NCBI RefSeq assembly: GCF_014195485.1
Contig: NZ_JACIBU010000001.1
Location: forward strand, 868,001 to 932,000
Length of the DNA: 64,000 nt
Source: Modestobacter versicolor
Lineage (GTDB): Bacteria > Actinomycetota > Actinomycetes > Mycobacteriales > Geodermatophilaceae
Reading direction: 5' to 3'
Both the position numbers and the translations under genes were made by a program. Numbering within the stretch: position 1 is the stretch's first letter; each line of letters starts with the position of its first letter. Of this stretch, positions 7,536-21,895 are shown in pieces. The notes under the pieces were generated by a model that worked only from the letters and a program-made list of their open reading frames with translations, had not been told where the DNA came from and did no database searches.

Positions 7536-8430
7536 GGATCCCGAGGTGCGCCAGCTGCGCGCGCTGCTGGCGGTGGTCGAGGCGGGCACGTTCACCGGGG
7601 CGGCGTCTCTGCTGGGCGTGTCCCAGGCGTCGGTGTCGCGCACCGTCGTCGCGCTCGAGCGCGCGCTCGGGGCGCGGGTGCTGCAGCGGACCACCCGGGC
7701 GGTGGCCCTCACCCCGGTCGGGGAGCGCGTCGCGGCGCACGCCCGGCGGGTGCTGGAGGAGGTCGCCGCCATGCGGCGCACCGCCGGCCAGGACCGCGGG
7801 GAGCTCCGGATCGGCTTCGCCTGGGCGGCGCTGGGCCGGCACACGGTCGCGGTGCAGCGGGCGTGGTCCCGGGCCCGTCCCGGCACGACGCTCGTCTTCG
7901 TCCAGTCGGTCACCCCGACCGCCGGGCTGGCCGAGGGCCTCGCCGACGTCAGCGTGCTGCGCCGCCCGGTCGACGACCGCCGGCTGCGCAGCGCGGTGGT
8001 GGGGGAGGAGCGGCGCTACGCCGCCGTGGCCGCCGACGACCCGCTGGCCCGCCGGCGCAGCCTGCGCCTCGCCGACCTGCACGGGCGGACGCTCGCGGTC
8101 GACCGGCTGACCGGCTCCACCACCGACGAGCTCTGGGGCTCGCTCCCTACGCCGCCCGCGACCCGGTCCGTGCGCGGCGTCGACGAGTGGCTCACCGTGA
8201 TCGCCGCCGGGCAGGCGGTCGGCATGACCGCCGGGGCCACGGCGGCGCAGCACCCCCGCCCCGGCGTCGTCTACCGGCCGGTCCGGGACGCCCCGCCGGT
8301 GGCGGTGCAGCTGACCTGGTGGGCGGACAGCCCGCCGGAGGGCCTGGCGGCGCTGCGCGCCCTGGTCACCGCCCAGTACGCCGGTGAGCGGTCGCCGTCC
8401 GGGGCGATGAGTAAGGGCACCCTTGGTTAG
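7534..8430 (+). CDS. LysR-family transcriptional regulator
   Basis: 298 aa. The N-terminal winged helix-turn-helix is canonical (LRALLAVVEAGTFTGAASLL, then GVSQASVSRTVVALERALGA, residues about 8-50). The rest is the periplasmic-binding-like effector domain with an effector-cleft loop around residues 95-130. It is divergent from the DMT exporter, which is its likely target. Unusually, its TAG stop codon lies inside the iron box that controls the following haem operon, so transcription from the regulator runs straight across that operator. Confidence 0.9.
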   Translation: MDPEVRQLRALLAVVEAGTFTGAASLLGVSQASVSRTVVALERALGARVLQRTTRAVALTPVGERVAAHARRVLEEVAAMRRTAGQDRGELRIGFAWAALGRHTVAVQRAWSRARPGTTLVFVQSVTPTAGLAEGLADVSVLRRPVDDRRLRSAVVGEERRYAAVAADDPLARRRSLRLADLHGRTLAVDRLTGSTTDELWGSLPTPPATRSVRGVDEWLTVIAAGQAVGMTAGATAAQHPRPGVVYRPVRDAPPVAVQLTWWADSPPEGLAALRALVTAQYAGERSPSGAMSKGTLG

Positions 8431-8452
8431 GTGAGCCTCACCTGTGTACGGT
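8423..8452 (+). promoter_or_regulatory. Iron-regulated promoter of the hmu operon with iron box
   Basis: TTAGGTGAGCCTCACCTGT at 8427-8445 matches 15 of 19 positions of the IdeR/DmdR/DtxR consensus TTAGGTTAGGCTAACCTAA. It fits in the spacer of a plausible promoter: TTGGTT at 8423 and TACGGT at 8447, 18 bases apart. Iron-loaded repressor would block RNA polymerase. The regulator gene itself is not in the window. Confidence 0.8.
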
Positions 8453-8520: not shown

Positions 8521-9660
8521 GTGCCCGCCCGCTCCCGCACCCTGGCCCGCGTCGCCCTGCTCACGGTGGCCGCCACGCTGGCCGGCTGCGCCGGTGCCGT
8601 GGACGACGGGGGAGCGGCCCCCGACGTGCCGGTGGTGCGGCTGGCCGATGCCACGGTGCTCGCCGACCCGAAGAACTACGTCGGCGCCAGCACCGCGGTG
8701 CTCGGCGCGGCCGACGGCGCGGAGGTGGCGCCGGCCGAGCCGGAGCTGCCGGTCACCGTCACCGACGTGCAGGGCACCGAGGTCACCGTCACCGACGTCA
8801 GCCGGGTGCTCGCGCTGGACCTCTACGGCTCGCTCTCCCAGATCACCCACGACCTCGGCCTCGGCGACCGGCTCGTCGGGCGGGACACCTCCTCGTCCTT
8901 CCCGGGCAGCGAGGACCTGCCGCTGGTGACACCCAGCGCGCACCAGATCAACGCCGAGGCGGTGCTGGAGCTGGCGCCGACGCTGCTGGTCACCGACACC
9001 ACGCTGGGCCCCTGGGACGCCGTGCTGCAGGTGCGGGAGGCCGGGGTGCCGGTCGTCGTCGTCGACGCGCACCGCGACCTGGCCGGGGTGGGCACGCTCA
9101 CCGAGCAGGTCGCCGCCGCCCTCGGCGTGCCGGAGCGCGGCGCCGAGCTGGCCGCCGCCACCACCGCGGAGGTCTCCGCCAAGGTCGCCGAGATCGCCGC
9201 CGTCGCCCCGCAGGACCCGGCCCGCCGGGTGCGGATGGTCTTCCTCTACGTACGCGGCCAGGCCGGCGTCTACTACATGTTCGGCCAGGGCTCGGGCGCG
9301 GACTCGCTCATCTCCGCGGTCGGCGGCGTCGACGTGGCGGCCGAGATCGGCTGGACCGGGATGAAGCCGCTCACCGACGAGGGCCTGGTCGCCGCCCAGC
9401 CGGACCTGGTCCTGGTGATGACCGAGGGGCTGGCCTCCGTCGGCGGGGTCGACGGGCTGCTGGAGCAGGTGCCCGCGCTGGCGCAGACCCCCGCCGGCCA
9501 GCACCGCCGGGTGGTCGACATGGCCGACACCCAGGTGCTCAGCTTCGGCCCGCGCACCGCCGACGTGCTGGACGCGCTGGCCGTCGCCGTCTACGCCCCC
9601 GGCAGCCAGCCGGCGCCCGAGGCCGGCACGGCCGGCACCCCGGTCGAGCTGCCCCGGTGA
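8521..9660 (+). CDS. hmuT: Haem ABC transporter substrate-binding lipoprotein
   Basis: 379 aa from a GTG at 8521 with GGAGG eight bases upstream. The N-terminus is a lipoprotein signal (RTLARVALLTVAATLAGCAG) with lipobox LAGC, so the mature protein is anchored by its Cys at the outer face of the membrane. The remainder is a type III periplasmic-binding fold of the HmuT/HutB class, with DVSRVLALDLYGSLSQITHD and ELAPTLLVTDTTLGPWDAV. It receives haem and passes it to HmuUV. It is the first gene of an iron-box-controlled operon and overlaps hmuU by four bases. Family assignment is strong; haem as substrate is supported by the HtaA and haem-oxygenase neighbours. Confidence 0.92.
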   Translation: MPARSRTLARVALLTVAATLAGCAGAVDDGGAAPDVPVVRLADATVLADPKNYVGASTAVLGAADGAEVAPAEPELPVTVTDVQGTEVTVTDVSRVLALDLYGSLSQITHDLGLGDRLVGRDTSSSFPGSEDLPLVTPSAHQINAEAVLELAPTLLVTDTTLGPWDAVLQVREAGVPVVVVDAHRDLAGVGTLTEQVAAALGVPERGAELAAATTAEVSAKVAEIAAVAPQDPARRVRMVFLYVRGQAGVYYMFGQGSGADSLISAVGGVDVAAEIGWTGMKPLTDEGLVAAQPDLVLVMTEGLASVGGVDGLLEQVPALAQTPAGQHRRVVDMADTQVLSFGPRTADVLDALAVAVYAPGSQPAPEAGTAGTPVELPR

Positions 9661-10742
9661 CGCTGCTCCGCGACGCCCCCGCGACCCGGCCGGCGGTCGC
9701 CGACCCGCGCCGGACCCGCACCCGGCTGACCTTCCTGGCCCTGACGGCGGCCCTCGTCGTCCTCGCCCTCGTCGCGGCCGGCACCGGCCAGCTGCACGTG
9801 CCGCCGGCGGAGGTGCTCGGGTCGCTGCTGCACCGGCTGGGCCTGGACGCCGGGCCGGTGCCGACCCACCCCAACGGCGACGCGACGCTGTGGGCGATCC
9901 GGTTCCCGCGGGTGGCCATGGCGGTGCTGGTCGGCGCCGCGCTGGCCGCCGCGGGCGCGGTGATGCAGGGCGTCTTCGGCAACCCGCTGGCCGAGCCCGG
10001 CGTCGTCGGCGTCTCCTCCGGCGCGGCGCTGGCCGCCAGCAGCACCATCGTCTTCGGGTTCACCTTCCTGGGCGGCTGGACGATGGCCGCGTTCGCCTTC
10101 GCCGGCGGGCTGGTCGCCGCGCTGCTGGTCTACGGCCTCTCCCGCGCCGACGGCCGCACCGAGGTGGTCACCCTGGTGCTCACCGGGGTCGCGCTGAACG
10201 CGTTCACCGGCGCCGGGCTGGCCTTCCTCACCTTCCTCGGCGACCAGCAGGCCCGGGAGCAGATCGTCTTCTGGCAGCTGGGCAGCCTCAACGGGGTCCG
10301 GTGGGAGCACGTCGCCGTCGTCGCCCCGCTGGTCGCCGTCGGCCTGGCCGGCGTGCTCACCCTCAGCCGCCGGCTGGACCTGCTGGCGCTCGGCGACCGG
10401 GCGGCCCGGCACGTCGGGGTGGACGTCGAGCGGCTCCGGCTGGTCAGCGTCGTGCTGGTCGCGCTGCTCACCGCCGCCGCGGTCGCGTTCTGCGGGGTGA
10501 TCGCCTTCGTCGGCCTGGTCGTGCCGCACCTCGTGCGGATGACCTGCGGGCCCGGCCACCGGGTGCTGGTGCCGGCCTCGGCGCTCGGCGGCGCCGTGCT
10601 GCTGCTCGCCGCCGACCTGGTCGCCCGCAACGCCGTCCCGTACGCCGACCTGCCGATCGGCATGCTCACCTCGCTGGTGGGCAGCCCGTTCTTCTTCTGG
10701 CTGCTCCGCCGGTCACGCCGGTCGGCCGGGAGCTGGGCGTGA
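9657..10742 (+). CDS. hmuU: Haem ABC transporter permease (FecCD family)
   Basis: 361 aa from a GTG that overlaps the hmuT stop. About ten transmembrane segments. The FecCD signature is clear: IRFPRVAMAVLVGAALAAAG, then VMQGVFGNPLAEPG near residues 100-120, and GVIAFVGLVVPHLVR near 280, the last being the loop that docks on the ATPase. It forms the membrane channel of the haem importer, normally as a homodimer. The final codons overlap hmuV. Confidence 0.93.
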   Translation: MTLLRDAPATRPAVADPRRTRTRLTFLALTAALVVLALVAAGTGQLHVPPAEVLGSLLHRLGLDAGPVPTHPNGDATLWAIRFPRVAMAVLVGAALAAAGAVMQGVFGNPLAEPGVVGVSSGAALAASSTIVFGFTFLGGWTMAAFAFAGGLVAALLVYGLSRADGRTEVVTLVLTGVALNAFTGAGLAFLTFLGDQQAREQIVFWQLGSLNGVRWEHVAVVAPLVAVGLAGVLTLSRRLDLLALGDRAARHVGVDVERLRLVSVVLVALLTAAAVAFCGVIAFVGLVVPHLVRMTCGPGHRVLVPASALGGAVLLLAADLVARNAVPYADLPIGMLTSLVGSPFFFWLLRRSRRSAGSWA

Positions 10743-11557
10743 GCGCCGCGGTCACCGAGCGGGCCGGCGTCGTGCTGGAGGCGGCCGGGCTGTCGGTCGC
10801 GCTCGACGGCACCCCGGTGCTGCACGACGTCACCCTGCCGGTGCGGGCCGGCGAGCTGCTGGTGCTCGCCGGGCCCAACGGCGCCGGCAAGTCCACCCTG
10901 CTCGGCGCGCTCGCCGGCGACCTGGCACCGACCGCGGGGTGCGTCCGCCTGGCGGGGGCCGACGTCCGGCGGCTGCGCGCCGACGAGCTCGCCCGCCGGC
11001 GGTCGGTGATGCCGCAGGACCACCGGGTCGCCTTCTCCTTCCGGGTGCGCCAGCTGGTAGAGATGGGACGCGCGCCCTGGCGGCGCACCCCCCGGGCCGA
11101 CGAGGACGACGCCCTCGTCGACGCCGCCCTGGCCGCCGCCGACGTGCCGCACCTGGCCGACCGGCTCTACCCGACGCTCTCCGGCGGCGAGCGGGCCCGC
11201 ACCGCCTTCGCCCGGACGCTCGCGCAGGACTGCCCGGTGCTGCTGCTCGACGAGCCCACCGCGGCGCTGGACGTGCAGCACCAGGAGCGGCTGCTGGCGC
11301 ACACCCGGTCGCTGACCCGCGGCGGCGCAGCGGCCGTGGCGGTGCTGCACGACCTCAACCTCGCCGCCGGTCACGCCGACCGGGTCGCGCTGCTCGCCGG
11401 CGGGCGGCTGCGGGCCCTCGGCACGCCCGCGGAGGTGCTCACCGCGGACCTGCTCAGCGAGGTCTACGAGCACCCGATCGACGTCCTGCCCCACCCCGTC
11501 GGCGGCGGACCGCTGGTCCTGCCGCGCCGGCCGAGCCACCCGGAGGACCCCCGATGA
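10739..11557 (+). CDS. hmuV: Haem ABC transporter ATP-binding protein
   Basis: 272 aa, GTG start overlapping the hmuU stop. Walker A GPNGAGKST at residues 45-53, ABC signature LSGGE at 147-151, Walker B LLLDEPT around 170, followed by the D-loop AALD and a switch His in VLHDLNLAAGHADRV. All residues needed for ATP hydrolysis are present. It energises HmuU. The stop overlaps the start of the next gene (ATGA), so the Ig-like surface protein is part of the same operon. Confidence 0.94.
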   Translation: MSAAVTERAGVVLEAAGLSVALDGTPVLHDVTLPVRAGELLVLAGPNGAGKSTLLGALAGDLAPTAGCVRLAGADVRRLRADELARRRSVMPQDHRVAFSFRVRQLVEMGRAPWRRTPRADEDDALVDAALAAADVPHLADRLYPTLSGGERARTAFARTLAQDCPVLLLDEPTAALDVQHQERLLAHTRSLTRGGAAAVAVLHDLNLAAGHADRVALLAGGRLRALGTPAEVLTADLLSEVYEHPIDVLPHPVGGGPLVLPRRPSHPEDPR

Positions 11558-12798
11558 CGACCGCCGAACCCACCGGGCTGCTGCGCCGGCTGCTGGCGCT
11601 CGCCGTGCTCGCCGCCGCGGTGGCCGCCGCCACCGTGCTGACCGCCGCTCCGGCCGCGGCCGCGCCGCGGGTCACGGTGGCCGACGAGTCCGGCGCCGCC
11701 CGGGCCGACACCACCTACGCGACCACGCTCACCGTCTCCGGCACCGGCTTCCAGTCGGTGAGCGGCGGCTTCGGCGGCATCTACGTGCTCTTCGGCTGGG
11801 TCTCCGGTGCCGGGTGGCAGCCCAGCGCCGGCGGGACCAGCGGCACCGACTACCGGTTCGTCCCGGACTCCCAGGCGGCGGAGAACGCCGGCTTCCAGCG
11901 CTTCGTCGCCTTCCCCGGCAGCTCCACGGTCGCCGAGGCGAACGGCGGCACGATCGCCGCCGACGGCTCGTGGTCGACCCGGCTGATGGTGCCCGGGGCG
12001 ACGTTCCAGACCGTCGACGGCAGCGGGGCCACCGTTCCCGTCGACTGCCGCACGGTCACCTGCGGGGTGATCACCATCGGCGCCCACGGGGTGGTCAACC
12101 CGGCGAACGAGAGCTTCACCCCGGTGGCCTTCGCCGACCTGCAGACCACCGACCCCGGCACCGGCCCGGCGGCGGAGCAGACCACCGAGGCGCCGGCGGC
12201 GGGCAGCCCGGCACCGGCTGCACCCCCTGCCGGGGCGCCCCCGGCGGCCACCGCCCCCGCCGTGCTCATCGACCCGGCCACCGCGGTCGCCGGGCGGGTG
12301 CTCTCCTTCACCGGCAGCGGCCTGGTCGCCGGCGAGCAGGTGCTGGCCACCCTGGACGACGGCGTCGCGTCGGTCGGTCCGCTGCTGGTCAGCGCCCAGG
12401 GCACGGTCGCCGGTCTGCTGGAGCTCCCGGCCGAGCTGCCCGGCGGCAACCACGAGCTGCGGGTCACCGGCACCACCACCGGCGGCGTCCCGGTGCTGAC
12501 CTTCGCCGTCGAGTCCGACGCCGGGGCGCTGTCGGTGCCGGTCGCCCCGACGGCGAGCTCGCGGCCGTCGACCGCGGCGCTCTTCTTCGTCGCGGCGGCG
12601 GCGCTGGTGCTCGTCGTCGTGCTGACGGCAGCGGTCACCCGGCGCCGCACCCGGGCCCGTCTTCGCCGGGCGGCAGTGCCCGCCCCCGCCGGTGCCCCCG
12701 GCGGCCCGCCGGCCGGACCGCCTACGCCGCCCAGCCGCCGGGTACGCCGGGCGCTGGCCCGGCGGGAGACCGAGCTCGCCCGGACGGTCGCCCGGTGA
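11554..12798 (+). CDS. Secreted membrane-anchored Ig-like (neocarzinostatin-type) protein in the haem locus
   Basis: 414 aa. An N-terminal signal (LLRRLLALAVLAAAVAAATV, then APAAAA) is followed by a beta-rich domain about residues 38-200 with a Cys pair in VDCRTVTCGVITIGAHG, a pattern shared with neocarzinostatin/HtaA-associated actinobacterial proteins. Next come a Pro/Ala linker (200-235), a second beta domain (235-325) and a C-terminal transmembrane helix (about 345-367) with a basic, Pro-rich cytoplasmic tail. It is translationally coupled to hmuV and to the next gene. The position implies a surface role in haem capture or assembly of the receptor; no haem ligand set can be pointed to. 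Confidence 0.75.
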   Translation: MTTAEPTGLLRRLLALAVLAAAVAAATVLTAAPAAAAPRVTVADESGAARADTTYATTLTVSGTGFQSVSGGFGGIYVLFGWVSGAGWQPSAGGTSGTDYRFVPDSQAAENAGFQRFVAFPGSSTVAEANGGTIAADGSWSTRLMVPGATFQTVDGSGATVPVDCRTVTCGVITIGAHGVVNPANESFTPVAFADLQTTDPGTGPAAEQTTEAPAAGSPAPAAPPAGAPPAATAPAVLIDPATAVAGRVLSFTGSGLVAGEQVLATLDDGVASVGPLLVSAQGTVAGLLELPAELPGGNHELRVTGTTTGGVPVLTFAVESDAGALSVPVAPTASSRPSTAALFFVAAAALVLVVVLTAAVTRRRTRARLRRAAVPAPAGAPGGPPAGPPTPPSRRVRRALARRETELARTVAR

Positions 12799-14831
12799 GG
12801 CGGCCGGCCGCGGCGGTCGCCGCCGGGGTGCTGGGCGCCGCGCTGCTCGCCGGCGGTGCGCCGCCGGCGGCCGCCGCCGAGCAGGCCGTCACCGGCGCGG
12901 TGCTCCGCTGGGGCGTCAGCGCCGAGGCCGGGAACGCCGGCGCCTCGCCGGGCACGGTCAACGCCCTCGCCGCCGGCCGGGTCGGCGACGGGGACGGCAA
13001 CGGCCGGATCGACGAGCCGGAGTGGTCGGCGTCGGCCGGCGCGGTGGCGGTCGAGCAGCAGCGGGCCGACGGCACGTCGGCGCCCGCCACCTTCGCCGGG
13101 CTGCGCAGCACCCCCGACGGCACGCCGCTGACCGACCCGGGCGCGGGGCTGACCTCCGGGCTCGTCGCCGTGCTCACCGGCGGCGCCGGCACCGTCGACC
13201 CGCTGACCGGCGCCGCCGACGTGCGCTGGGACGGCGACCTCACCGTGGTGCTCGCCGACGGCGCGGGCCTGGTCTGGGTCGCCGACCCGCGGCTCGAGGT
13301 CTCCGCCGACGGCAGCGGCCGGCTGCTCGCCCAGGTGCAGGCCGCCGGCCGGGGAGTGACCACGGGCGCGGCCGAGGTCACCCTCGCCGAGCTGGATGCC
13401 GTCGACGTCGCCGCCGGCACCCAGCAGCTGACGCCGGCATTCCTCGGCGTCGGGTGGTCCGGGACGCCCCCGCAGGACACCACGGGCAGCAGCTGGGGCG
13501 CGTTCCCCGCCTCGTTCCTCGACCTGGTCGGGCAGGCCGGGCTCGCCGTCCCCTGGTACTCCACCGGCGACCCGGACGACGCGGCCAAGCCCCCGCTGCC
13601 GGTGCACCTGCAGCTGCCGGCGCCCGAGCCGCCGCCGTCCCCGCTGCCGTCCCCACCGACGTCCCCACCGCCGGATCCCGGTGGTGTCGACGTCACCGAC
13701 GCCCAGTTCCGCTGGGGCCTCAACCAGGAGGTCGGCAACGCCGCCTTCGCCCCCGGCACCGTCAACCTGCTGTCCGCCGGCCGGGTCCCGAGCACCGGCC
13801 CCGACCAGCAGATCGGTGCCGACCGCTGGGCAGCGACCGCGGGCAGCGTGCGGATCGAGAAACGCCAGCCGGACGGGTCCTACGCGCTCGCCACCTTCGC
13901 CGGCACCCGCACCACCCCGGCCGGGCAGCCGCTGACCACGCCGTCGGCCGGGCTGTGGAGCGACCACCAGGTGGTGCTGGACGGCGGGACGGGGCAGGTC
14001 GACGTCGCCGCGGGGGAGGCGACCGTCCGCTGGGACGGCGACTTCACCGTCGCGCTCTACAGCGGGCTGACCTTCTTCCACGTCTCCGACCCGGTGCTCA
14101 CCGTCGCCGCCGGCCGCGGCCAGGTGACCGCCACCCTGGGCGGGTACGCCGCCGACCGGGCCGACCCGACCGCCTGGCTGCCGCTGCCGGAGACCCCCGT
14201 CGTCCTCGCCGACCTGGGTGGTGTCGTGCTCGGCGCGCAGGGGTTCACCGCCACCCCGGCCTACCTCGGGGTCGGCTACGACCCGCCGCCGGGGAGCAGC
14301 ACCGCCGTGCAGCTGCGGGAGGGCGCGACCTGGGGCTCGTTCCCGCGCAGCTTCGTCGACTTCCAGGTCGCCGTCGGGCAGGGCTCCTACTGGTACTCCA
14401 GCGGCGGACCGACCGACCGGTTCAAGGTCGCCCTGCCGCTCACGGTCAGCTTCGACGCGAGCGACCCGGTGCCCCCGCCGGCTGCCGCACCCGGGGTCGC
14501 GGCACCCGCCCCGCCGGTGACCAACCCGGTCGTCCCGCCACCGGCGCGCACGCCGACCGCGAGCACCGGCTCCCCACCACGCACGGCGCCGCGGCCTCCC
14601 GCCGCACCGCCGGCATCCCCGCCGCTGACGACGGCCGACGCCCTCCTCGACGCTCCGGGCACCGTGCGCGTCGGGCGCGACGGCACCGACCTCGCCGGCC
14701 TGCTCACGCCCGTGCCGGGGCCGCGCGACCTGGGCTGGTGGACGGCCGGGGGCGCCTTGCTGCTGACCGCCCTGCTGACCTGGCTGGTCAGCTCCGGGCG
14801 GCTGACGCTCGGCCGCCGTGACCGACCGTGA
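12795..14831 (+). CDS. Two-domain HtaA-like surface protein, membrane anchored
   Basis: 678 aa from a GTG overlapping the previous stop. A signal peptide ends near residue 28 (APPAAAA). Two homologous HtaA-like domains follow, at about residues 31-270 and 296-554. Each opens with an R-W-G motif (AVLRWGVSAEAGNAG; AQFRWGLNQEVGNAA) and shares T-F-A-G and V-R-W-D-G-D blocks. A Pro-rich linker separates them, a second Pro/Thr-rich stalk follows, and a transmembrane helix (about 645-668) with a basic tail anchors it. The Tyr and His residues that bind haem in Corynebacterium HtaA domains are not present at the expected positions in either copy, so these may be diverged or structural domains. Confidence 0.75.
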   Translation: MRRPAAAVAAGVLGAALLAGGAPPAAAAEQAVTGAVLRWGVSAEAGNAGASPGTVNALAAGRVGDGDGNGRIDEPEWSASAGAVAVEQQRADGTSAPATFAGLRSTPDGTPLTDPGAGLTSGLVAVLTGGAGTVDPLTGAADVRWDGDLTVVLADGAGLVWVADPRLEVSADGSGRLLAQVQAAGRGVTTGAAEVTLAELDAVDVAAGTQQLTPAFLGVGWSGTPPQDTTGSSWGAFPASFLDLVGQAGLAVPWYSTGDPDDAAKPPLPVHLQLPAPEPPPSPLPSPPTSPPPDPGGVDVTDAQFRWGLNQEVGNAAFAPGTVNLLSAGRVPSTGPDQQIGADRWAATAGSVRIEKRQPDGSYALATFAGTRTTPAGQPLTTPSAGLWSDHQVVLDGGTGQVDVAAGEATVRWDGDFTVALYSGLTFFHVSDPVLTVAAGRGQVTATLGGYAADRADPTAWLPLPETPVVLADLGGVVLGAQGFTATPAYLGVGYDPPPGSSTAVQLREGATWGSFPRSFVDFQVAVGQGSYWYSSGGPTDRFKVALPLTVSFDASDPVPPPAAAPGVAAPAPPVTNPVVPPPARTPTASTGSPPRTAPRPPAAPPASPPLTTADALLDAPGTVRVGRDGTDLAGLLTPVPGPRDLGWWTAGGALLLTALLTWLVSSGRLTLGRRDRP

Positions 14832-14852: not shown

Positions 14853-14894
14853 TTGACACTCACTCGGGTGGGCTATTAGGTGAGGCTTGCCTAA
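14853..14894 (+). promoter_or_regulatory. Second iron-regulated promoter with iron box
   Basis: TTGACA at 14853-14858 is a perfect -35. The iron box TTAGGTGAGGCTTGCCTAA at 14876-14894 matches 16 of 19 consensus positions and begins where the -10 should lie (TATTAG or TTAGGT, 15-17 bases downstream). Iron-loaded DtxR-family repressor would cover the -10. It gives the htaA-DUF916-hmuO block its own iron-repressed promoter. Confidence 0.85.
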
Positions 14895-14928: not shown

Positions 14929-16107
14929 ATGACGCACACCTCCGCACGGCCCCGGCGGGCGACCCGAGTGGTCGCCGCCGCAGGGACCGCTGCGATCGCC
15001 TCCGGCCTGCTGCTGGCCGGAGCAGGGTCGGCCGCGGCGGCGGAGACCGCCGACGGCGGCTCGCTGAGCTGGGGGGTGAAGGCCTCCTTCCGCAGCTACA
15101 TCGCCGGCCCGATCGCCCACGGGTCGATCACCACCGGCGGTGGGGCGACCACCGCCGCCAACGGCACCTACGCCTTCCCGGCCACCGCCGGCACGGTCGA
15201 CGGCAGCAGCGTCGACGCGGCCTTCGCCGGCAGCGTCCACTTCACCGGCCACGCCGGGCAGCTGGACATGACGCTCACCGACCTGAACGTGGTCATCGAC
15301 GGCACCACCGGCGTGCTCTACGCCGACGTGGACTCCAAGTCGCTGTCCTCCGGGTCGCTCGTGCACTACGAGGACGTCGACTTCGCCGCGCTGGACCTGA
15401 GCGCGGTCACCGCCCAGCCCACCGCCGACGGCTACAGCTGGACGGCGATCCCGACCACGCTGACCGCGAACGGCGTGCCGGCGTTCGCCGACTTCTACGC
15501 CGAGGGGACGGCGCTGGACCCGCTGAGCTTCACCCTCGACGTCGCCGAGGCCACCGACCCCGACCCGGGCACCGACCCCGACCCGGGCACCGACCCCGAC
15601 CCGGGCACGCCGACCCAGGCCGAGCAGGACCTGACCGTGGTCGTGCCCGAGGGCACCGAGGAGCCGGAGCCGGGGACGTTCGGCTGGGAGGTCACCGGTG
15701 ACGGCTCGGCCGTCAGCCTGGGCACCGCGGCCGACGCCGGTGACCACCTCACCGCGACCGGGCAGCTCGCGCCGGTCGTGGTGACCGACACCCGCAGCAC
15801 CCGGTCGGCGTGGTCGATCACCGCCCAGGTCAGCGACTTCACCGCCGGCAGCACCACCCTCGCCGGCAAGCACCTGGGCTGGACGCCGCGGGTCGTCACC
15901 GCCGGGGGCGGGGCCGTCGCCGGCGCCGCCGTCACGCCCGGCCTGGTGTCCGGCAACGGCCTGGCGCAGACCGCCACCCTGGGCAGCGCCCCGACCGGGC
16001 ACGACCTGGGCACCGCCACGCTCGGCGCCGACCTGGAGCTGCAGCTGCCGTCCGACACCGAGGCCGGCACCTACGGCGCGACGCTGACGCTGACCGCGCT
16101 CAGCTGA
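14929..16107 (+). CDS. htaA: HtaA-domain haem-binding protein with C-terminal WxL-like domain
   Basis: 392 aa; the ATG at 14929 is chosen because a GAGGAGAA ribosome binding site precedes it. A signal peptide ends near residue 38. The HtaA domain (about 42-205) has the canonical opening LSWGVKASFRSYIAGPIAHG. It contains the three residue types known to hold haem in Corynebacterium HtaA: Tyr57 in SFRSY, His108 in FTGHAGQLD and a Tyr at 131. A DPDPGT linker repeated three times follows. The last 150 residues look like a WxL domain, with RSAWSITAQVSDF, a second LGWTP motif and a C-terminal GTYGATLTLTAL strand. It heads an iron-box promoter and is followed by a DUF916 partner gene. Secreted, cell-wall associated haem receptor. 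Confidence 0.85.
   Translation: MTHTSARPRRATRVVAAAGTAAIASGLLLAGAGSAAAAETADGGSLSWGVKASFRSYIAGPIAHGSITTGGGATTAANGTYAFPATAGTVDGSSVDAAFAGSVHFTGHAGQLDMTLTDLNVVIDGTTGVLYADVDSKSLSSGSLVHYEDVDFAALDLSAVTAQPTADGYSWTAIPTTLTANGVPAFADFYAEGTALDPLSFTLDVAEATDPDPGTDPDPGTDPDPGTPTQAEQDLTVVVPEGTEEPEPGTFGWEVTGDGSAVSLGTAADAGDHLTATGQLAPVVVTDTRSTRSAWSITAQVSDFTAGSTTLAGKHLGWTPRVVTAGGGAVAGAAVTPGLVSGNGLAQTATLGSAPTGHDLGTATLGADLELQLPSDTEAGTYGATLTLTALS
15556..15609 (+). repeat. Three 18-bp tandem repeats encoding a DPDPGT linker
   Basis: Three consecutive copies of an 18-base unit beginning GACCCCGACCCGGGCACC; the third differs only at its last base. They encode an acidic, proline-rich hinge between the HtaA and WxL-like domains. 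The near identity suggests recent slippage or active length variation. Confidence 0.85.
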
Positions 16108-16198
16108 CCCGACCGCCGGGACCGGCCCCCGGGACGCAGCCGACGCGCCCCGGGGGCCGGCCCCGGCATCCTCCACCACCGCACCCCGAGAGGCCCGG

Positions 16199-17239
16199 AT
16201 GACCACCGCACACCCACCCCGACGGGCCACGGCCGCCGCCGCCGTCCTGGCGCTGCTCGTGCTGGCGGTGCTCGGGGGCTGGGCCACCGCCCGGCCCGCC
16301 GCAGCCGAGACCGTGCAGTGGTCGGTCGGCCCGCGCACCGGCGACGCGGGCGCCCGGGCCAACTACGGCTTCGTGCTCGACCCGGGGGCGGTGGTGCAGG
16401 ACGCGCTCGTGGTCACCAACCAGGGGCAGACCCCGCTGACCCTCGGCCTCTACGCCGCCGACGGGTTCACCACCGACACCGGGCAGCTCGACGTGCTGCC
16501 CACCGGCGCCGCCTCGACCGACCTGGGCAGCTGGATCGCGCTGCCGGCCAGCAGCGTGCAGCTCGCCCCGGGGGAGCGGGTGGAGGTGCCGTTCACCCTC
16601 ACCGTGCCCGCCGACGCGGCCGCCGGTGACCACTCCGGGGCCATCGTCACCTCGCTGGTCTCCGGCAGCGGCACCGCCGGCGTGAGCCTGGACCGGCGGC
16701 TCGGCGTGCGGGTGCACACGCTGGTCAGCGGCGACCTCACCGCGGGGATGCAGGTCGGCGGGCTGGCCGTGGACTACCGGCCCGCTGCGGTGCCGTTCGC
16801 CGCGGGCTCGGCGGTGGTGACCTTCACCCTGACCAACACCGGCAACACCCGGGTCGCCGCCGACCAGGTGGTCCGGGTCAGCGGCCCGTTCGGGCTGGGC
16901 ACCCGCACGCTGACCGCCACCACCCCCGAGCTCCTCGCCGGGGCGTCGGTGCCGGTCTCGCTGACCGTGCCCGACGTGCCACCGGTCGGCCGGCTGACCG
17001 CGGAGGTGGCGCTCGCCCCGGCCGCGGTCGGCGCCAGCGACGTCACGGCCGACCCGGTGCTGACCAGCGCCGCCGGGCCCGCGCTGAGCTGGACCACCCT
17101 GGCCCTGCTGGCCGCCGTCGTCCTGGTGCCGCTGCTGGTGGCCCTCCGCCGCCGGCGCCGCCGGCTGCAGCAGGACCTGGACGCGTTCCTGCGCACCACC
17201 CCCGACCCGACCGACGACGCCGTGGAGGCCTCCCGATGA
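16199..17239 (+). CDS. DUF916-type (WxL-partner) surface protein with C-terminal membrane anchor
   Basis: 346 aa with a signal peptide ending near residue 38 (RPAAAE). The DUF916 pattern is clear: WSVGPRTGDAGARANYGFVL, then DALVVTNQGQTPLTLGLYAA with a conserved beta-sandwich, and PFTLTVPADAAAGDHSGAIV. A second beta domain (about 180-285) resembles the DUF3324-like partner half. A transmembrane helix (about 288-312) with an RRRRRR stop-transfer and cytoplasmic tail closes it. In Firmicutes DUF916/DUF3324 proteins bind peptidoglycan and WxL proteins. Here it follows an HtaA-WxL fusion directly and overlaps the haem oxygenase gene by four bases. Confidence 0.8.
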   Translation: MTTAHPPRRATAAAAVLALLVLAVLGGWATARPAAAETVQWSVGPRTGDAGARANYGFVLDPGAVVQDALVVTNQGQTPLTLGLYAADGFTTDTGQLDVLPTGAASTDLGSWIALPASSVQLAPGERVEVPFTLTVPADAAAGDHSGAIVTSLVSGSGTAGVSLDRRLGVRVHTLVSGDLTAGMQVGGLAVDYRPAAVPFAAGSAVVTFTLTNTGNTRVAADQVVRVSGPFGLGTRTLTATTPELLAGASVPVSLTVPDVPPVGRLTAEVALAPAAVGASDVTADPVLTSAAGPALSWTTLALLAAVVLVPLLVALRRRRRRLQQDLDAFLRTTPDPTDDAVEASR

Positions 17240-17892
17240 CCAGCACCGCCGTCCCCACCGGCTTCGCCGCCCGGCTGAGGACCGCCACCCAGGCCGACCA
17301 CACCGCCGCCGAGGGGTCGGCGTTCGTCGACGACCTGCTCTCCGGCCGGCTGCCGCGCACCGCCTACGCCGCGCTGCTCGCCCAGACGCACCTCGTCTAC
17401 GACGTGCTCGAGCAGGCCGTCGCCGCGCAGGCCCGGGTGCCCGAGGTGCAGCCCTTCCTGCACCCGGGGCTGGTCCGGCTGCCGTCCCTCGCCGCCGACC
17501 TGGAGCACCTGCTCGGCCCGGCCTGGCGGGAGGCCCTGGTGCCGCTGCCGGCCACCCAGCGCTACGTCGACCGGCTGCGCGAGGTGGCCTTCGACTCCCC
17601 GGCGCGCCTGGTGGCCCACCACTACCTGCGCTACCTCGGCGACCTCTCCGGCGGGCAGGTCATCCGGCGGCTGGTCGGCCGGGCCTACGGGCTGGAGCTC
17701 GACGGTGTCCGGTTTCACGTCTTCGACGCCCTCGGCAAGGCCAAGCCGTTCAAGGACGCCTACCGGGCCGCGCTGGACGCCGCGCCCTGGACGCCGGAGG
17801 AGCAGGACCAGCTGATCGCCGAGGTCGCCGTGGGCTACCGGCTCAACGCCGAGCTGTTCCGCGACCTCGGCGCCCGGCACGCCGTCGGCTGA
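17236..17892 (+). CDS. hmuO: Haem oxygenase (biliverdin-producing)
   Basis: 218 aa. The proximal haem ligand is His22 in TQADHTAAEGS, at nearly the same position as in Corynebacterium diphtheriae HmuO. The distal helix carries YLRYLGDLSGGQVIRR with the flexible GDLSGGQ motif that sits over the haem. Length and lack of a membrane tail match bacterial HO-1-type enzymes. It opens haem to biliverdin, CO and ferrous iron using oxygen and reductant. The ATG overlaps the DUF916 stop, so haem capture and degradation are co-expressed from the 14876 iron-box promoter. Its stop is six bases from the convergent paaE stop. Confidence 0.95.
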   Translation: MTSTAVPTGFAARLRTATQADHTAAEGSAFVDDLLSGRLPRTAYAALLAQTHLVYDVLEQAVAAQARVPEVQPFLHPGLVRLPSLAADLEHLLGPAWREALVPLPATQRYVDRLREVAFDSPARLVAHHYLRYLGDLSGGQVIRRLVGRAYGLELDGVRFHVFDALGKAKPFKDAYRAALDAAPWTPEEQDQLIAEVAVGYRLNAELFRDLGARHAVG

Positions 17893-17898
17893 CCCCGG

Positions 17899-18975
17899 TC
17901 AGGCGTCGTAGTCGACGGTGACCGCGTCGGAGACCGGCAGGCTCTGGCAGGTGAGCACGTACCCGGCGTCGACCTCGCGCGGGTCGAGGGCGTAGTTGCG
18001 GCGCATCTCCACCTCGCCGTCGGTGACCCGGGCCCGGCAGGTGCCGCACACCCCGCCCTTGCAGGCGAACGGCAGGTCGCCGCGGACCCGCTGGGCGGCG
18101 TCGAGCACCGGCACGTCGCGGGGGAGCGCCAGGGTGGTCGACCGGCCGTCGAGCACGATCGTCACCGCGGAGCTCGGCCCGTCGACGGTCTCCTCGTCGC
18201 CGCGCACCGGCTGCGGCGGGACGTCGTCGACGAAGAACAGCTCCTGGTGCACCCGCTCGGCCGGCACGCCCAGCTCGGTGAGCAGTGCCTGGGCCCCGGT
18301 GACCAGGCCGTGCGGCCCGCACAGCCACCAGTGGTCGACCTCCGGGACGTCGACCAGCGCGCCGACCAGGGTGCGCAGCCGGTCGCCGTCCAGCCGGCCG
18401 CTGGTCAGCTCGGCGTCCCGCGGCTCCCGGGAGAGCACGTGCACCAGCTGCAGCCGGGTGCCGTACCGGTCCTTGAGGTCGGCCAGCTCGTCGGCGAACA
18501 TCACCGTGCTGGTGCGGCGGTTGCCGTAGAACACGGTGACCGTCGACTCCCCGTCGCCCAGCACCGACGCGGCCAGGCTCAGCGCCGGGGTGATGCCGGA
18601 GCCGGCGACGACGAACACGTGGTCGGCCGGGGCGGACAGGTCGGCGGTGAAGGTGCCCGACGGTGGCAGCACCTCGATCTTGTCGCCCGGGCGCACCTCG
18701 TGCACCAGCCAGGCGGAGAAGAACCCGCCGGGCACCTCGCGGACGCCGACCCGCGGCGCGGCACCGACCGGCGCGCAGATCGAGTACGAGCGGCGCTCGT
18801 CGCGGTCGCCGTCCACCCGGCGCAGGGTCAGGGCCTGACCGGGGGAGAAGGCGTAGTCCCCGGCCAGCGCGGCCGGGACGTCGAAGGTCACCGCGACCGC
18901 GTCGTCGGTGAGCCGCTCCACCTGGGCGACCCGCAGCGGGTGGAACTGCGGCCGGCGGCGGGCGGGGGCGGACAT
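17899..18975 (-). CDS. paaE: Phenylacetyl-CoA epoxidase reductase subunit
   Basis: 358 aa, ATG at 18975 sharing one base with the paaD stop. A ferredoxin-NADP reductase-like half contains FAD-binding RRSYSICAPVG (about residues 60-70) and an NAD(P) site in VFVVAGSGITPALSLAASVL. The C-terminal plant-type 2Fe-2S domain has ligands C-x5-C-x2-C in CKGGVCGTC plus the distant Cys of YVLTCQSLP. It passes electrons from NADPH to the PaaA di-iron centre. It is the last gene of the paaABCDE operon. Confidence 0.95.
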   Translation of the reverse strand: MSAPARRRPQFHPLRVAQVERLTDDAVAVTFDVPAALAGDYAFSPGQALTLRRVDGDRDERRSYSICAPVGAAPRVGVREVPGGFFSAWLVHEVRPGDKIEVLPPSGTFTADLSAPADHVFVVAGSGITPALSLAASVLGDGESTVTVFYGNRRTSTVMFADELADLKDRYGTRLQLVHVLSREPRDAELTSGRLDGDRLRTLVGALVDVPEVDHWWLCGPHGLVTGAQALLTELGVPAERVHQELFFVDDVPPQPVRGDEETVDGPSSAVTIVLDGRSTTLALPRDVPVLDAAQRVRGDLPFACKGGVCGTCRARVTDGEVEMRRNYALDPREVDAGYVLTCQSLPVSDAVTVDYDA

Positions 18976-19535
18976 CAGATCTCCTTGACGTGCTCGAAGG
19001 GCTCCAGGCAGGCCCGGCACCGGCGCATCGCCTTGCACGCGGTGGCGCTGAACTCGCTGACCTCCTCGGTGTCCGGCGACCCGCACTGCGGGCAGGTCGC
19101 CGTCCGCCGGGACCGGCCCAGCTGCAGCGGCACCGGGCCGGGAGTGCGCACCGGTGCCGGCCCGGGCGGGGCGATGCCGCCGGCGGCGAGCTTGCGGCGG
19201 CCCTCCGCGGTGATCCAGTCGGTGCTCCAGGCGGGGGAGAGCACGGTGCGGACGTCGACGTCGGCGAACCCGGCCCGGTGCAGCGCGTGCACCAGGTCCG
19301 CGCGCATGACGCCCATCGCCGGGCAGCCGGAGTAGGTGGGGGTGATCTCGACGACCACGGTGCCCTGCTCGTCGCGGACGTCCCGCAGCACGCCGAGGTC
19401 GGCGAGGGTCAGCATCGGCAGCTCGGGGTCGGTGACCGTCTCCGCCACCACCCGCGCCCCCCGGAGATGGCGATCTCCGGGGTCGTGGGCTGCCCGGAGA
19501 TGGCCATCTTCGTGGAGGGCGTGCACCGCGGTCAC
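18975..19535 (-). CDS. paaD: Phenylacetyl-CoA epoxidase, PaaD (iron-sulfur assembly-like) subunit
   Basis: About 186 aa if started at the GTG 19535, which overlaps the paaC stop (GTGA). The core is typical: ETVTDPELPMLTLADLGVLR, then TYSGCPAM, which is the MIP18/SufT-like domain with its Cys. The C-terminus holds a zinc-ribbon-like set (CPQCGS, then CRACLEPF). The N-terminal 20 or so residues (HEDGHLRAAHDPGDRHLRGA) do not look like other PaaD proteins and are encoded by a palindromic stretch at 19461-19509, possibly an insertion that kept the frame. An internal GTG just before AETVTDPE would give a normal-length protein. Confidence 0.88.
   Translation of the reverse strand: MTAVHALHEDGHLRAAHDPGDRHLRGARVVAETVTDPELPMLTLADLGVLRDVRDEQGTVVVEITPTYSGCPAMGVMRADLVHALHRAGFADVDVRTVLSPAWSTDWITAEGRRKLAAGGIAPPGPAPVRTPGPVPLQLGRSRRTATCPQCGSPDTEEVSEFSATACKAMRRCRACLEPFEHVKEI
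19461..19509. repeat. Pair of related palindromes inside the 5' end of paaD
   Basis: Two copies of a CCGGAGATGGC-type element 33 bases apart. The first, 19461-19480, has perfect 8-bp arms CCGGAGAT and ATCTCCGG around GGCG. The second contains the perfect 12-bp palindrome AGATGGCCATCT at 19498-19509. It is unlike neighbouring coding sequence and resembles a small interspersed repeat. Confidence 0.5.
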
Positions 19536-20440
19536 CAGGTGGCCGCGGGGTGCTCGCGGGCCAGGCCCTGGAGGTCGGCCAGCAGTGCGATCAGCTCGGG
19601 GCCGTGCTCGCCGGCGCGGCCACGGCTGGGCTGCTCGGCCGGCCACGCCGGCACGGCCAGCGTCGCCCGCTCGAGCACCAGGGTGAGCACGTCGCGGACC
19701 TCCTCGCGCAGCTCCGCGGGGTCGACGGCGACACCGGCCGCGGTCAGCCGCCGCTCGACGTCGGTGGCGGTGAACAGGTCGGCCAGCAGCGGCCAGACGG
19801 CGTCCACCCCGGCCTGCGTGCGGCGGTGCGACTCCGGCGTCCCGTCACCGAGCCGGAGCACCCAGCGGGCGGCGTGGTCGCGGTGGTAGGTCAGCTCGGG
19901 AACGCCCTTCGCGGCGATCGCGGCGAGCACCGGGTCGCGCGACCCGCGCAGCCGGGTGAACAGCGCCAGCCGCCACGCGGACGCGGCGAGCAGCCGGACG
20001 ACGGTCTGGCCGAAGTCGCCGTTGGGCGCCTCGACCAGGGCGCTGTTGCGGAACTCGTCGGCGTCCCGGAAGTAGGCCAGCGCGTCCTCGTCCGGGATCG
20101 ACCCGGTGGCCAGCGTGCGGCTGCGGCCGAGCACGCCCACCGAGCCGGCCCGGGCCAGCAGCAGCCGCGCCTGGCCGAGCAGGTCCAGCCCGCAGTTGGC
20201 GAGCGCGACCTCCTCCTCCAGCTCGGGGGCGTTGGTCACCCACTGGGTGAGCCGCTGGCAGAGCACCAGGGCGTCGTCACCGAGCATCAGGCAGTAGGCG
20301 CCCAGGTCCGCGGGGTCGATGCCCTCGGGCACGGTGGTGTCCACCCCGGCCAGCGGCTCGTCGAACCCGGTGCCGAACGCCCACTGGCCCTCGCCCCCGT
20401 GCGCGTGGTCCAGCGCGTCGTACACGGTCTCTTCGTGCAT
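19532..20440 (-). CDS. paaC: Phenylacetyl-CoA epoxidase structural subunit
   Basis: 302 aa, ATG at 20440 with AGGAGG upstream. It is a ferritin-like four-helix protein: LGDDALVLCQRLTQWVTNAP near the N-terminus, NCGLDLLGQARLLLARAG, and YHRDHAARWVLRLGDGT. PaaC is the non-catalytic partner of PaaA and holds the alpha/beta-like heterodimer together. Eleven bases separate it from paaB and it overlaps paaD, consistent with one transcript from the promoter near 21800. Confidence 0.95.
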   Translation of the reverse strand: MHEETVYDALDHAHGGEGQWAFGTGFDEPLAGVDTTVPEGIDPADLGAYCLMLGDDALVLCQRLTQWVTNAPELEEEVALANCGLDLLGQARLLLARAGSVGVLGRSRTLATGSIPDEDALAYFRDADEFRNSALVEAPNGDFGQTVVRLLAASAWRLALFTRLRGSRDPVLAAIAAKGVPELTYHRDHAARWVLRLGDGTPESHRRTQAGVDAVWPLLADLFTATDVERRLTAAGVAVDPAELREEVRDVLTLVLERATLAVPAWPAEQPSRGRAGEHGPELIALLADLQGLAREHPAATW

Positions 20441-20451
20441 GGTGGCGCCTC

Positions 20452-20817
20452 CTACATGTGGGGGACGTCGTCGGGGATCGCGTAGAACGTCGGGTGCCGG
20501 TAGACCTTGTCGCCGCTGGGGGCGAACATCGGGTCCTTCTCGTCCGGGCTGGACGCCGTGATGTCGGCGGCCCGCACCACCCAGATGCTCACGCCCTCGT
20601 TGCGCCGGGTGTAGAGGTCGCGGGCGGAGTGCACCGCCATCTCGTCGTCGGGGGCGTGCAGCGAGCCGACGTGCACGTGGTTGAGCCCGCGCTTGCCGCG
20701 CACGAAGACCTCGTAGAGCGGCCAGTCGCGGCGGCTGACCGCCGGCTGGTCGGCGACCGGCACCTGCGGGCCGGTCGGGACGGCGCCGTGCCCGCCCTCG
20801 CTGGTCAGGTCGGTCAT
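20452..20817 (-). CDS. paaB: Phenylacetyl-CoA epoxidase subunit B
   Basis: 121 aa from an ATG at 20817 that overlaps the paaA stop (ATGA). The longer open frame upstream is antisense noise from paaA. The core [20 protein letters not shown] and [18 protein letters not shown] is typical PaaB, a small protein that bridges PaaAC heterodimers in the multicomponent epoxidase. Slightly longer than the Escherichia coli protein because of an extra hydrophilic N-terminal 25 residues. Confidence 0.95.
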
Positions 20818-21764
20818 GCGTGCTTCTCCGCGTAGACCGACGCGGCTTCCGTGACCCAGGCGTTGCCGTCGCGGGCCGCGCGCCGCCGGGCGATCCGCTC
20901 GTCGTTGCACGGGCCGTTGCCGGCGAGCACCTGCTTGAACTCCGCCCAGTCGATCGGGCCGAACCGGTACCGCCCGGTCTGCGGGTCCAGCTCCAGGTCC
21001 GGGTCGGGCAGCGTGACGCCCAGGACGGCGGCCTGCGGCACGGTCATGTCGACGAAGCGCTGCCGCAGCTCGTCGTTGCTGTGCCGCTTGACCCCCCAGC
21101 GCATCGACTGCGCCGAGTTGGGGCTGTCGTCGTCCGGCGGGCCGAACATCATCAGCGAGGGCCACCACCAGCGGTCGACGGCGTCCTGCACCATCGCCCG
21201 CTGGGCGTCGGTGCCGCGCATCATCGTCATCAGCAGCTCGTAGCCCTGCCGCTGGTGGAAGGACTCCTCCTTGCAGACCCGGATCATCGCCCGCGCGTAG
21301 GGGCCGTAGCTCGACCGGCACAGCGGCACCTGGTTGCAGATTGCGGCGCCGTCGACCAGCCAGCCGATGACCCCGACGTCGGCGTAGGTCAGCGTCGGGT
21401 AGTTGAAGATCGAGCTGTACTTCTGCTTGCGCTCGATGAGCTTGTCGGTGAGGTCGGCCCGGTCGGCGCCCAAGGTCTCCGCCGCCGAGTAGAGGTACAG
21501 CCCGTGGCCGGCCTCGTCCTGCACCTTGGCCAGCAGGATCGCCTTGCGCCGCAGGCTGGGGGCGGCGAGCAGCCAGTCACCCTCGGGCTGCATGCCGATG
21601 ATCTCGGAGTGGGCGTGCTGGGCGATCTGCCGGATCAGCCCGTTCCGGTAGGCCTCCGGCATCCAGTCGCGCGGCTCGATCCGGTGGTCGGCGGCGATGG
21701 TGGCGTCGAACTGCGCCTGCAGCGCGGCGGTGTCCGACGGGCGGTCCAGAGCGGGGGCGGACAT
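20814..21764 (-). CDS. paaA: Phenylacetyl-CoA epoxidase catalytic subunit
   Basis: 316 aa; the ATG at 21764 has a GGAGA ribosome binding site six bases upstream. It is a ferritin-like di-iron oxygenase: first E-x-x-H set in [20 protein letters not shown], second in [16 protein letters not shown], with the substrate-loop region [19 protein letters not shown]. It converts phenylacetyl-CoA to its ring-1,2-epoxide with oxygen. It is first in the operon, divergent from paaK, with the shared operator in between. Confidence 0.96.
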
Positions 21765-21796
21765 CGCATCTCCTGGCGCAGTGGGCGGTCCGGGAT

Positions 21797-21818
21797 TTAC
21801 CGACCGGGTGTTCAGTAA
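21797..21818. promoter_or_regulatory. Probable operator for the paa TetR regulator
   Basis: TTACCGACC followed by GGTGT-type spacer and GTTCAGTAA forms an imperfect inverted repeat with 7 of 9 matching positions per arm. It is centred between the divergent paaA and paaK starts, and a TAATAG-like -10 lies at its right edge. This is a typical site for a TetR repressor released by phenylacetyl-CoA. Confidence 0.55.
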
Positions 21819-21895
21819 TAGTGTGACCCGGCACACCGCGGTCCACAAGCGCCGGCGCGCACTGCGCCCGGCGCGCTGCTGAGGGGACGTCGACG

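Follow-up and report, generated by a model that had tools for sequence, protein, structure and literature searches.

In Lactobacillales and Bacillales, larger proteins can carry a C-terminal WxL domain (PF13731), with a membrane-anchored WxLIP (PF06030, or DUF916, together with DUF3324) encoded next to them. WxL proteins of Enterococcus faecium interact in vitro with their transmembrane partner (as cited in PMC5817068). Outside Lactobacillales and Bacillales this type of attachment is described as nearly absent, and it is discussed as a host-linking device (PMC10599100); a honeybee study mentions WxL in Firm-4 lactobacilli (PMC4449606). More than 91% of 938 WxL sequences belong to Firmicutes (PMC9772566), which means that some non-Firmicutes WxL sequences are already in databases; PMC1534035 contains no word beginning with "actino". 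Haem-binding CR domains are known from Corynebacterium HtaA, ChtA and HtaB, and the haem site of CR1 of C. diphtheriae HtaA comprises Ser45, the axial Tyr49, the helper pair Gly106-His107 and Tyr197; CR domains are reported to give a Soret band near 405 nm (PMC12494546). Other HtaA proteins, for example in Streptomyces, end in a membrane helix or LPxTG signal (PMC10924467), and a Streptomyces atratus cluster brings together HtaA proteins, a haem ABC transporter and haem oxygenase (PMC10060970). Here, we analyze a stretch of 64,000 nucleotides (hereafter, the window) from the 4.59 Mb genome of Modestobacter versicolor (NZ_JACIBU010000001.1, positions 868,001 to 932,000), in which an HtaA domain is fused to a WxL-like tail and followed by the gene for a DUF916-type protein.

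The locus is like the Lactobacillales and Bacillales systems in placing a C-terminal WxL domain on a larger cargo, next to a membrane-anchored WxLIP, and unlike them in its actinomycete host and haem-binding cargo. It shares with the Corynebacterium proteins a CR domain with axial tyrosine, helper histidine and propionate residues, as mapped by spacing, and differs from them by its tail, the word WxL being absent from the available text of PMC12494546. The same haem-binding domain occurs in the Streptomyces-type HtaA proteins, which carry a membrane or sortase-type tail instead of the WxL plus WxLIP arrangement found here. We propose, with a probability of roughly 0.77, that the HtaA-WxL protein is a haem receptor on the cell surface, where its WxLIP partner holds it, a reading in which haem binding, contact with the partner and surface location are predicted.

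The HtaA Domain and Its Putative Haem Site

The protein encoded at 14929 (table 1) matches HtaA (PF04213) with an E-value of 1.6e-53 (182 bits for a cut-off of 24), in agreement with the domain assigned in the initial annotation, and it is the only Pfam HtaA match of the genome at E 0.001. Its AlphaFold model has a predicted local distance difference test score (pLDDT) of 82 and a predicted template modeling score (pTM) of 0.55, and the HtaA part of the model matches C. glutamicum HtaA (6jsa) with a TM-score of 0.92 of the target. The repeated DPDPGT hinge noted previously is indeed present, and the protein has neither a membrane helix nor a sortase signal.

By motif spacing, the counterparts of the CR1 residues are Ser53, Tyr57, Gly107-His108 and Tyr190. 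By comparison with the Corynebacterium CR domains, Tyr57 would be the axial tyrosine and His108 the helper histidine, while the propionates would be bound by Ser53 together with Tyr190. The serine, the axial tyrosine and Tyr190 are conserved in 14/14 other HtaA-WxL rows and 11/11 untailed rows of our alignment (A5), whereas the helper histidine is conserved in all 11 untailed rows and only three of the 14 tailed ones. In Micromonosporaceae HtaA-WxL proteins (L068, L070, L072, L086, and others), the helper Gly-His is replaced by Tyr/His-Pro. Among the three residues singled out initially, Tyr57 and His108 fall on the mapped CR site; Tyr131 is present, varies among relatives and is none of the mapped site residues, and we rejected it as a haem ligand.

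A Divergent WxL Tail

The tail reaches the very C-terminus of the protein (residue 392 of 392). PF13731 is matched at E ≤ 0.1 by all 29 tails of an alignment (A3), with a best E-value of 2.7e-8; seven of these tails came from loci first found with PF13731, and the others are those of the window and of G092, a relative, or came from an HtaA-based scan. Comparison by hhalign of these 29 tails with seven Lactobacillales WxL proteins taken from plasmids (A7) gave a probability of 96% (E 4.1e-9, 104 columns), and the core common to both sets is VxDxRGTNAGWxL. In the proximal motif the tryptophan is invariant, W-x-L occurring in 25/29 tails and W-S-I in the window. The distal motif, YxxxLTWxLxxxP (PMC5817068), is mostly LTWxL in the Lactobacillales set, in contrast to LTLTL followed by the stop in 25/29 tails; it is absent from the window tail, which reads YGATLTLTALS and then stops, without the final xxxP. 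A search of the PDB with the tail profile found no WxL chain. The WxL-like tail of the initial annotation is upheld by sequence profiles, the single window tail scoring below the Pfam cut-off.

The WxLIP Partner

The product of the next gene, at 16199, matches PF06030 above the cut-off (E 9.3e-7, 29.3 bits for a cut-off of 27.3), and no second match to this family occurs in the genome at E 1. Together with a hydrophobic stretch followed by six arginines, seen by eye, this agrees with the earlier description of a DUF916-type protein carrying its own membrane anchor; by hydropathy, a membrane helix lies near the C-terminal end of 68/73 WxLIP matches of relatives. A 23-row profile of the neighbor proteins (A4) finds EfmWxLIP1 in the PDB with an E-value of 4e-7. 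The first three Foldseek ranks for a linked WxL plus WxLIP model from Actinoplanes couchii (L068; pLDDT 78, pTM 0.53) go to two E. faecium entries, 9i1y with the unbound WxLIP and 9i25 with its complex with a long WxL protein. These alignments span 269-270 columns on chains of 251-267 residues (270 columns and a TM-score of 0.58 of the target for the 267-residue EfmWxLIP1 chain), a length indicating that what is matched is the WxLIP part with its two immunoglobulin (Ig)-like domains. Unlike in the partners of Lactobacillales and Bacillales, DUF3324 gave no Pfam match at E ≤ 1 in the window partner, whose second domain is probably Ig-like, and the NQIDKxxxYFDLK motif is not present near its N-terminus, where WSVxP and a later arginine stand at the equivalent place. 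The question raised initially, whether the C-terminal domain has the WxL fold, is thus half answered: the tail is related to WxL by profiles, and the nearest structures to the partner are E. faecium WxLIPs.

Linkage of Tail and Partner among HtaA Loci

A scan of named genomes with two peptide patterns gave 216 relatives, the best 80 of which were kept and represent 78 distinct loci. Because both patterns lie within the HtaA domain, the scan was blind to the tail. According to our own profiles, the best HtaA protein bears a WxL tail in 16/78 loci. Of these 16 tailed loci, 14 contain a WxLIP no farther than about 6 kb away, versus none of the 62 untailed ones (Fisher's P = 1.2e-13, relatedness ignored). 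The same holds within Nocardiopsidaceae, where the split is 3/3 tailed versus 0/14 untailed. The suspected association of WxL-like tails with DUF916 genes thus recurs in related loci, and the HtaA-WxL plus WxLIP architecture is real and conserved. The two exceptions are Nonomuraea (L102 and L127); each genome has its single WxLIP match at another site, so that one partner may act in trans.

Tail and membrane helix are mutually exclusive, a C-terminal helix being detected by hydropathy in 0/16 tailed and 46/62 untailed HtaA proteins. Judged from these sequences, the WxL tail replaces the usual membrane anchor of HtaA proteins.

WxL Tails across the Class and Their Cargo

Pfam PF13731 is above its cut-off in 17/394 genomes of the class and matches at E ≤ 0.01 in 45/394, while our own tail profile matches 74/394 genomes and 28/138 genera. 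We looked at 61 of these 74 (that of the window, then 8 and 52 others), leaving 13 out. The 8 were picked, among the 60 relative regions, after the neighbors of most were known, and we therefore quote the other 52, which were chosen by tail match; nine of their genomes had been in an earlier survey of 30 short loci (about 1.5 kb per side), in which a WxLIP was seen in 14/30, including five of these nine. In 48/52 regions, covering 13 family codes, a WxLIP frame is adjacent on the same strand, no more than 205 bases away; for all relative regions together the count is 56/60. Three of the four regions without an adjacent WxLIP have one elsewhere, and two (G180 and G443) are cut by contig ends. 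All 92 tails of relatives lie within 15 residues of the protein end and have no membrane helix. As in a typical Firmicutes cluster, in which several WxL open reading frames (ORFs) stand beside a WxLIP (PMC10599100), two or more are found in 11/60 regions. The counts of 23, 60, 73, and 92 given in this work may include a duplicate, since a single T. fusca contig seems to underlie both L049 and L056.

The cargo was scanned with Pfam in 20 hand-picked WxL proteins. Three carry a purple-acid-phosphatase-type phosphoesterase and three, picked for it, HtaA; an M64 peptidase, an S15 peptidase, a GH43 with ricin-type lectin, a Big_3_5 and a sub-threshold neocarzinostatin domain occur once each; two consist of WxL alone and seven have no match at E 0.001. 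At one locus (L054:2076-8061), an M64 peptidase-WxL and an S15 peptidase-WxL lie in tandem with one WxLIP alongside. DUF916 genes, there named WxLIPs, and metallophosphatases are among the commonest gene neighbors of Ang-2, a surface-protein gene confined to Actinomycetota (PMC12537917), and these neighbors fit the phosphoesterase-WxL cargo found here; the available text of that study mentions neither actinomycete WxL tails nor haem proteins. The occurrence of DUF916 near other actinobacterial genes is thus already published (PMC12537917), and the HtaA-WxL pairing is apparently new, a partial survey of the open-access literature having given no report of HtaA-WxL or of actinomycete WxL tails. 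The new actinobacterial architecture suggested at the outset stands as HtaA-WxL; it is not unique to this organism, its known spread covering six family codes or more (f1, f3, f5, f15, f19, and f47).

Distribution and History of HtaA-WxL

In the family to which the window belongs, the tail protein and the WxLIP are clear in 2/112 genomes, that of the window and G092, which shares the entire operon at 58-83% identity. A further tail match, in G028, is weak (E 8.5e-4), contains two TAG codons and was excluded from the count. A search of plasmids gave no relative of HtaA-WxL at 80% query coverage. The best tree of HtaA domains (86 rows, 23 tailed) has five changes, of which the starred branches force one, and the tree of tails (90 rows, 23 HtaA-bearing) needs seven, five of them forced. 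We rejected a single ancestral HtaA-WxL fusion; on the tail tree, a single clade of HtaA-bearing tails is rejected (p-AU 5.4e-5, quick tree). Because the HtaA-bearing tails do not form one clade, HtaA and WxL were probably joined or exchanged more than once.

The Haem Operon and Its Putative Regulatory Boxes

Table 1. Features of the haem locus (coordinates in the window)
Position	Strand	Feature	Basis
8427..8445	+	DtxR/IdeR-type box before hmuT, 15/19 of consensus	Box scan
8521..9660	+	Haem ABC transporter substrate-binding protein (hmuT-like)	Pfam PF01497, E 4.9e-27
9657..10742	+	ABC transporter permease (hmuU-like)	ORF; homologs in G092 and other HtaA-WxL loci; name from synteny
10739..11557	+	ABC transporter ATPase (hmuV-like), likely GTG start overlapping hmuU stop	Within an ORF; homologs in G092 and other HtaA-WxL loci; name from synteny
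11554..12798	+	Probably membrane-anchored protein, weak neocarzinostatin-type match	NCBIfam; hydrophobic C-terminal stretch by eye
12795..14831	+	Probably membrane-anchored protein, two divergent HtaA-like repeats	Own HtaA profile
14876..14894	+	DtxR/IdeR-type box before htaA-WxL, 16/19 of consensus	Box scan
14929..16107	+	HtaA-WxL protein of 392 aa; by eye, residues 1-38 or so form a signal peptide	ORF list, Pfam
15055..15534	+	HtaA (CR) haem-binding domain, residues 43-202	Pfam; AlphaFold model
15556..15609	+	Hinge, three DPDPGT copies, residues 210-227	Read from sequence
15619..16104	+	WxL domain, divergent (residues 231-392), with WSI (295-297) and YGATLTLTALS as last strand	Pfam below cut-off; hhalign
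16199..17239	+	Partner of WxLIP/DUF916 type with, by eye, a signal peptide; WxLIP_PGBD (residues 58-149), probably another Ig-like domain, and a C-terminal membrane helix	Pfam; family profile
17093..17149	+	C-terminal membrane helix of WxLIP, then RRRRRR	Sequence, by eye
17236..17892	+	Haem oxygenase, start overlapping WxLIP stop by 4 bases	Pfam PF01126, E 2.3e-53

The gene that follows the partner encodes, as first read, haem oxygenase (table 1). Homologs of hmuT, hmuU and hmuV are present in 23/23 HtaA-WxL loci (one locus counted twice) and haem oxygenase in 12/23. The two boxes, scored against a 19-position DtxR/IdeR-type consensus, are the only sites of the window reaching 14/19, and none of five Markov windows reached 13/19. 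In 18/20 relative loci, the distance from such a box to the HtaA domain downstream of it is at most about 250 bases; in the two Nonomuraea loci the box is farther upstream, ahead of hmuT.

Two other proteins are encoded between the transporter and HtaA-WxL. The product of 11554 matches the NCBIfam enediyne chromoprotein family at E 3.6e-4 (20.4 bits, far under the cut-off of 86). That of 12795 has no Pfam match at E ≤ 1, its G092 homolog matching HtaA at 25 bits, and its two repeats were found with our own HtaA profile in a search of three proteins (E 9.3e-7 and 7.9e-4). By eye, they have an alanine at the position of the axial tyrosine of HtaA and are followed by the hydrophobic C-terminal stretch; this protein is perhaps a scaffold or a non-haem version. 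Homologs of both are found in 4/23 HtaA-WxL loci (L157, L158, L162, and L185). In two of these (L158:7909-9435 and L162:7910-9469), the homolog of the 12795 protein lies between HtaA-WxL and WxLIP and carries a WxL tail in place of the hydrophobic end seen in the window, an apparent anchor swap. In a haem cluster of Nocardiopsis ansamitocini, one gene (L057:5374-6417) combines a sub-threshold neocarzinostatin match with a WxL tail, identical as aligned to that of the next HtaA-WxL gene. Downstream of the operon in the window (17899-23260), the ORF list contains, by eye, phenylacetate-degradation-like genes.

Proposed Mechanism and Alternatives

In the mechanism that we envisage, iron starvation would switch on hmuTUV and htaA-WxL by way of a DtxR/IdeR-type repressor. 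The 14929 product would be secreted as a haem receptor, its HtaA domain taking haem through Tyr57, with His108 as helper and Ser53 and Tyr190 contacting the propionates, and its WxL domain serving as the attachment part, held at the envelope, with a predicted wall location, by the membrane-helix WxLIP from the next gene. Haem would then pass to the HmuT-like binding protein and on to HmuUV, and the haem oxygenase, product of the last gene, would open it.

Several observations weigh against a receptor held by its WxLIP partner. Once trimmed, the window tail matches PF13731 at E 3.8e-4 and 21 bits, under the 25-bit cut-off, and both of its W-x-L motifs are altered; the WxL part of the AlphaFold model is beta-rich and of mixed confidence, and the 50 PDB matches listed for it include neither a convincing one nor a WxL chain. 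The linked Actinoplanes model, at its pTM of 0.53, has an unreadable interface and speaks neither for nor against binding, and the helper histidine is missing from the Actinoplanes-type HtaA-WxL proteins. Regarding the linkage, 11 of the 16 tailed loci are from Micromonosporaceae, a kinship ignored by the Fisher test, and an independent-pairs test, with a single pair on starred branches, is too small to become significant. Among the 62 untailed loci, three have an ORF that extends past the end of the locus and 12 are shorter than 12 kb, so that a tail or a WxLIP could be missed there. One Nonomuraea WxLIP match contains a TGA, and a tailed genome that is 94% complete (G180) gave no WxLIP match.

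Three other explanations have to be weighed. The tail and the neighboring product might be generic Ig-like folds paired incidentally, as the weakness of several scores could suggest: PF13731 reaches E 0.64 (10.4 bits) on the whole 14929 protein, other Ig-like families in Pfam weakly match the 16199 product, and single-sequence comparisons with Enterococcus mundtii proteins gave 37% for the WxLIP profile against one WxLIP and, for the tail, 0.3% against one large WxL protein. The comparison of the tail with the small WxL protein of E. mundtii gave 90% over 42 columns. The match to the Lactobacillales WxL profile (96%) and the finding of EfmWxLIP1 by the WxLIP profile argue against such a coincidence, which is largely refuted, and was rejected, because of the linkage (14/16 vs. 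0/62, plus 48/52 further regions); we regard it as very improbable.

A second explanation, in which the tail binds peptidoglycan alone and the WxLIP helps in export or folding rather than holding the protein, would account for the two Nonomuraea HtaA-WxL genes that have no WxLIP inside 6 kb, and WxL proteins are reported to bind the wall from outside and to occur in the medium (PMC5817068). The adjacency in 48/52 regions and the complex of WxLIP with a long WxL protein listed in the PDB (title of 9i25) speak against it, although a helper role is still compatible with both, and we consider it unlikely. Slightly less so, if still doubtful, is that HtaA-WxL is mainly a shed haemophore carrying haem to the cell, for which the WxLIP would be a docking site. 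In C. diphtheriae, HtaA and ChtA are secreted haemophores (PMC12494546), and the tailed proteins have no membrane helix (0/16); on the other hand, the encoding of a membrane-anchored partner next door suggests retention. We favor a surface receptor that its WxLIP partner retains.

Significance

These data lead us to a broader proposal, which we hold to be fairly probable, that WxL/WxLIP would be a general display system in actinomycetes, with swappable cargo, parallel to sortase and membrane-helix anchors. HtaA receptors would have moved onto it several times and, in one type of haem operon, the same protein would carry a helix or a WxL tail depending on the species. Because haem binding is measurable by spectroscopy, attachment and function could be separated by deleting one neighboring gene. 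The presence of WxL/WxLIP in 13 actinomycete family codes, with cargo for nutrient uptake as well as enzymes, points to a general principle of display, and its recognition may aid the annotation of hypothetical actinobacterial surface proteins.

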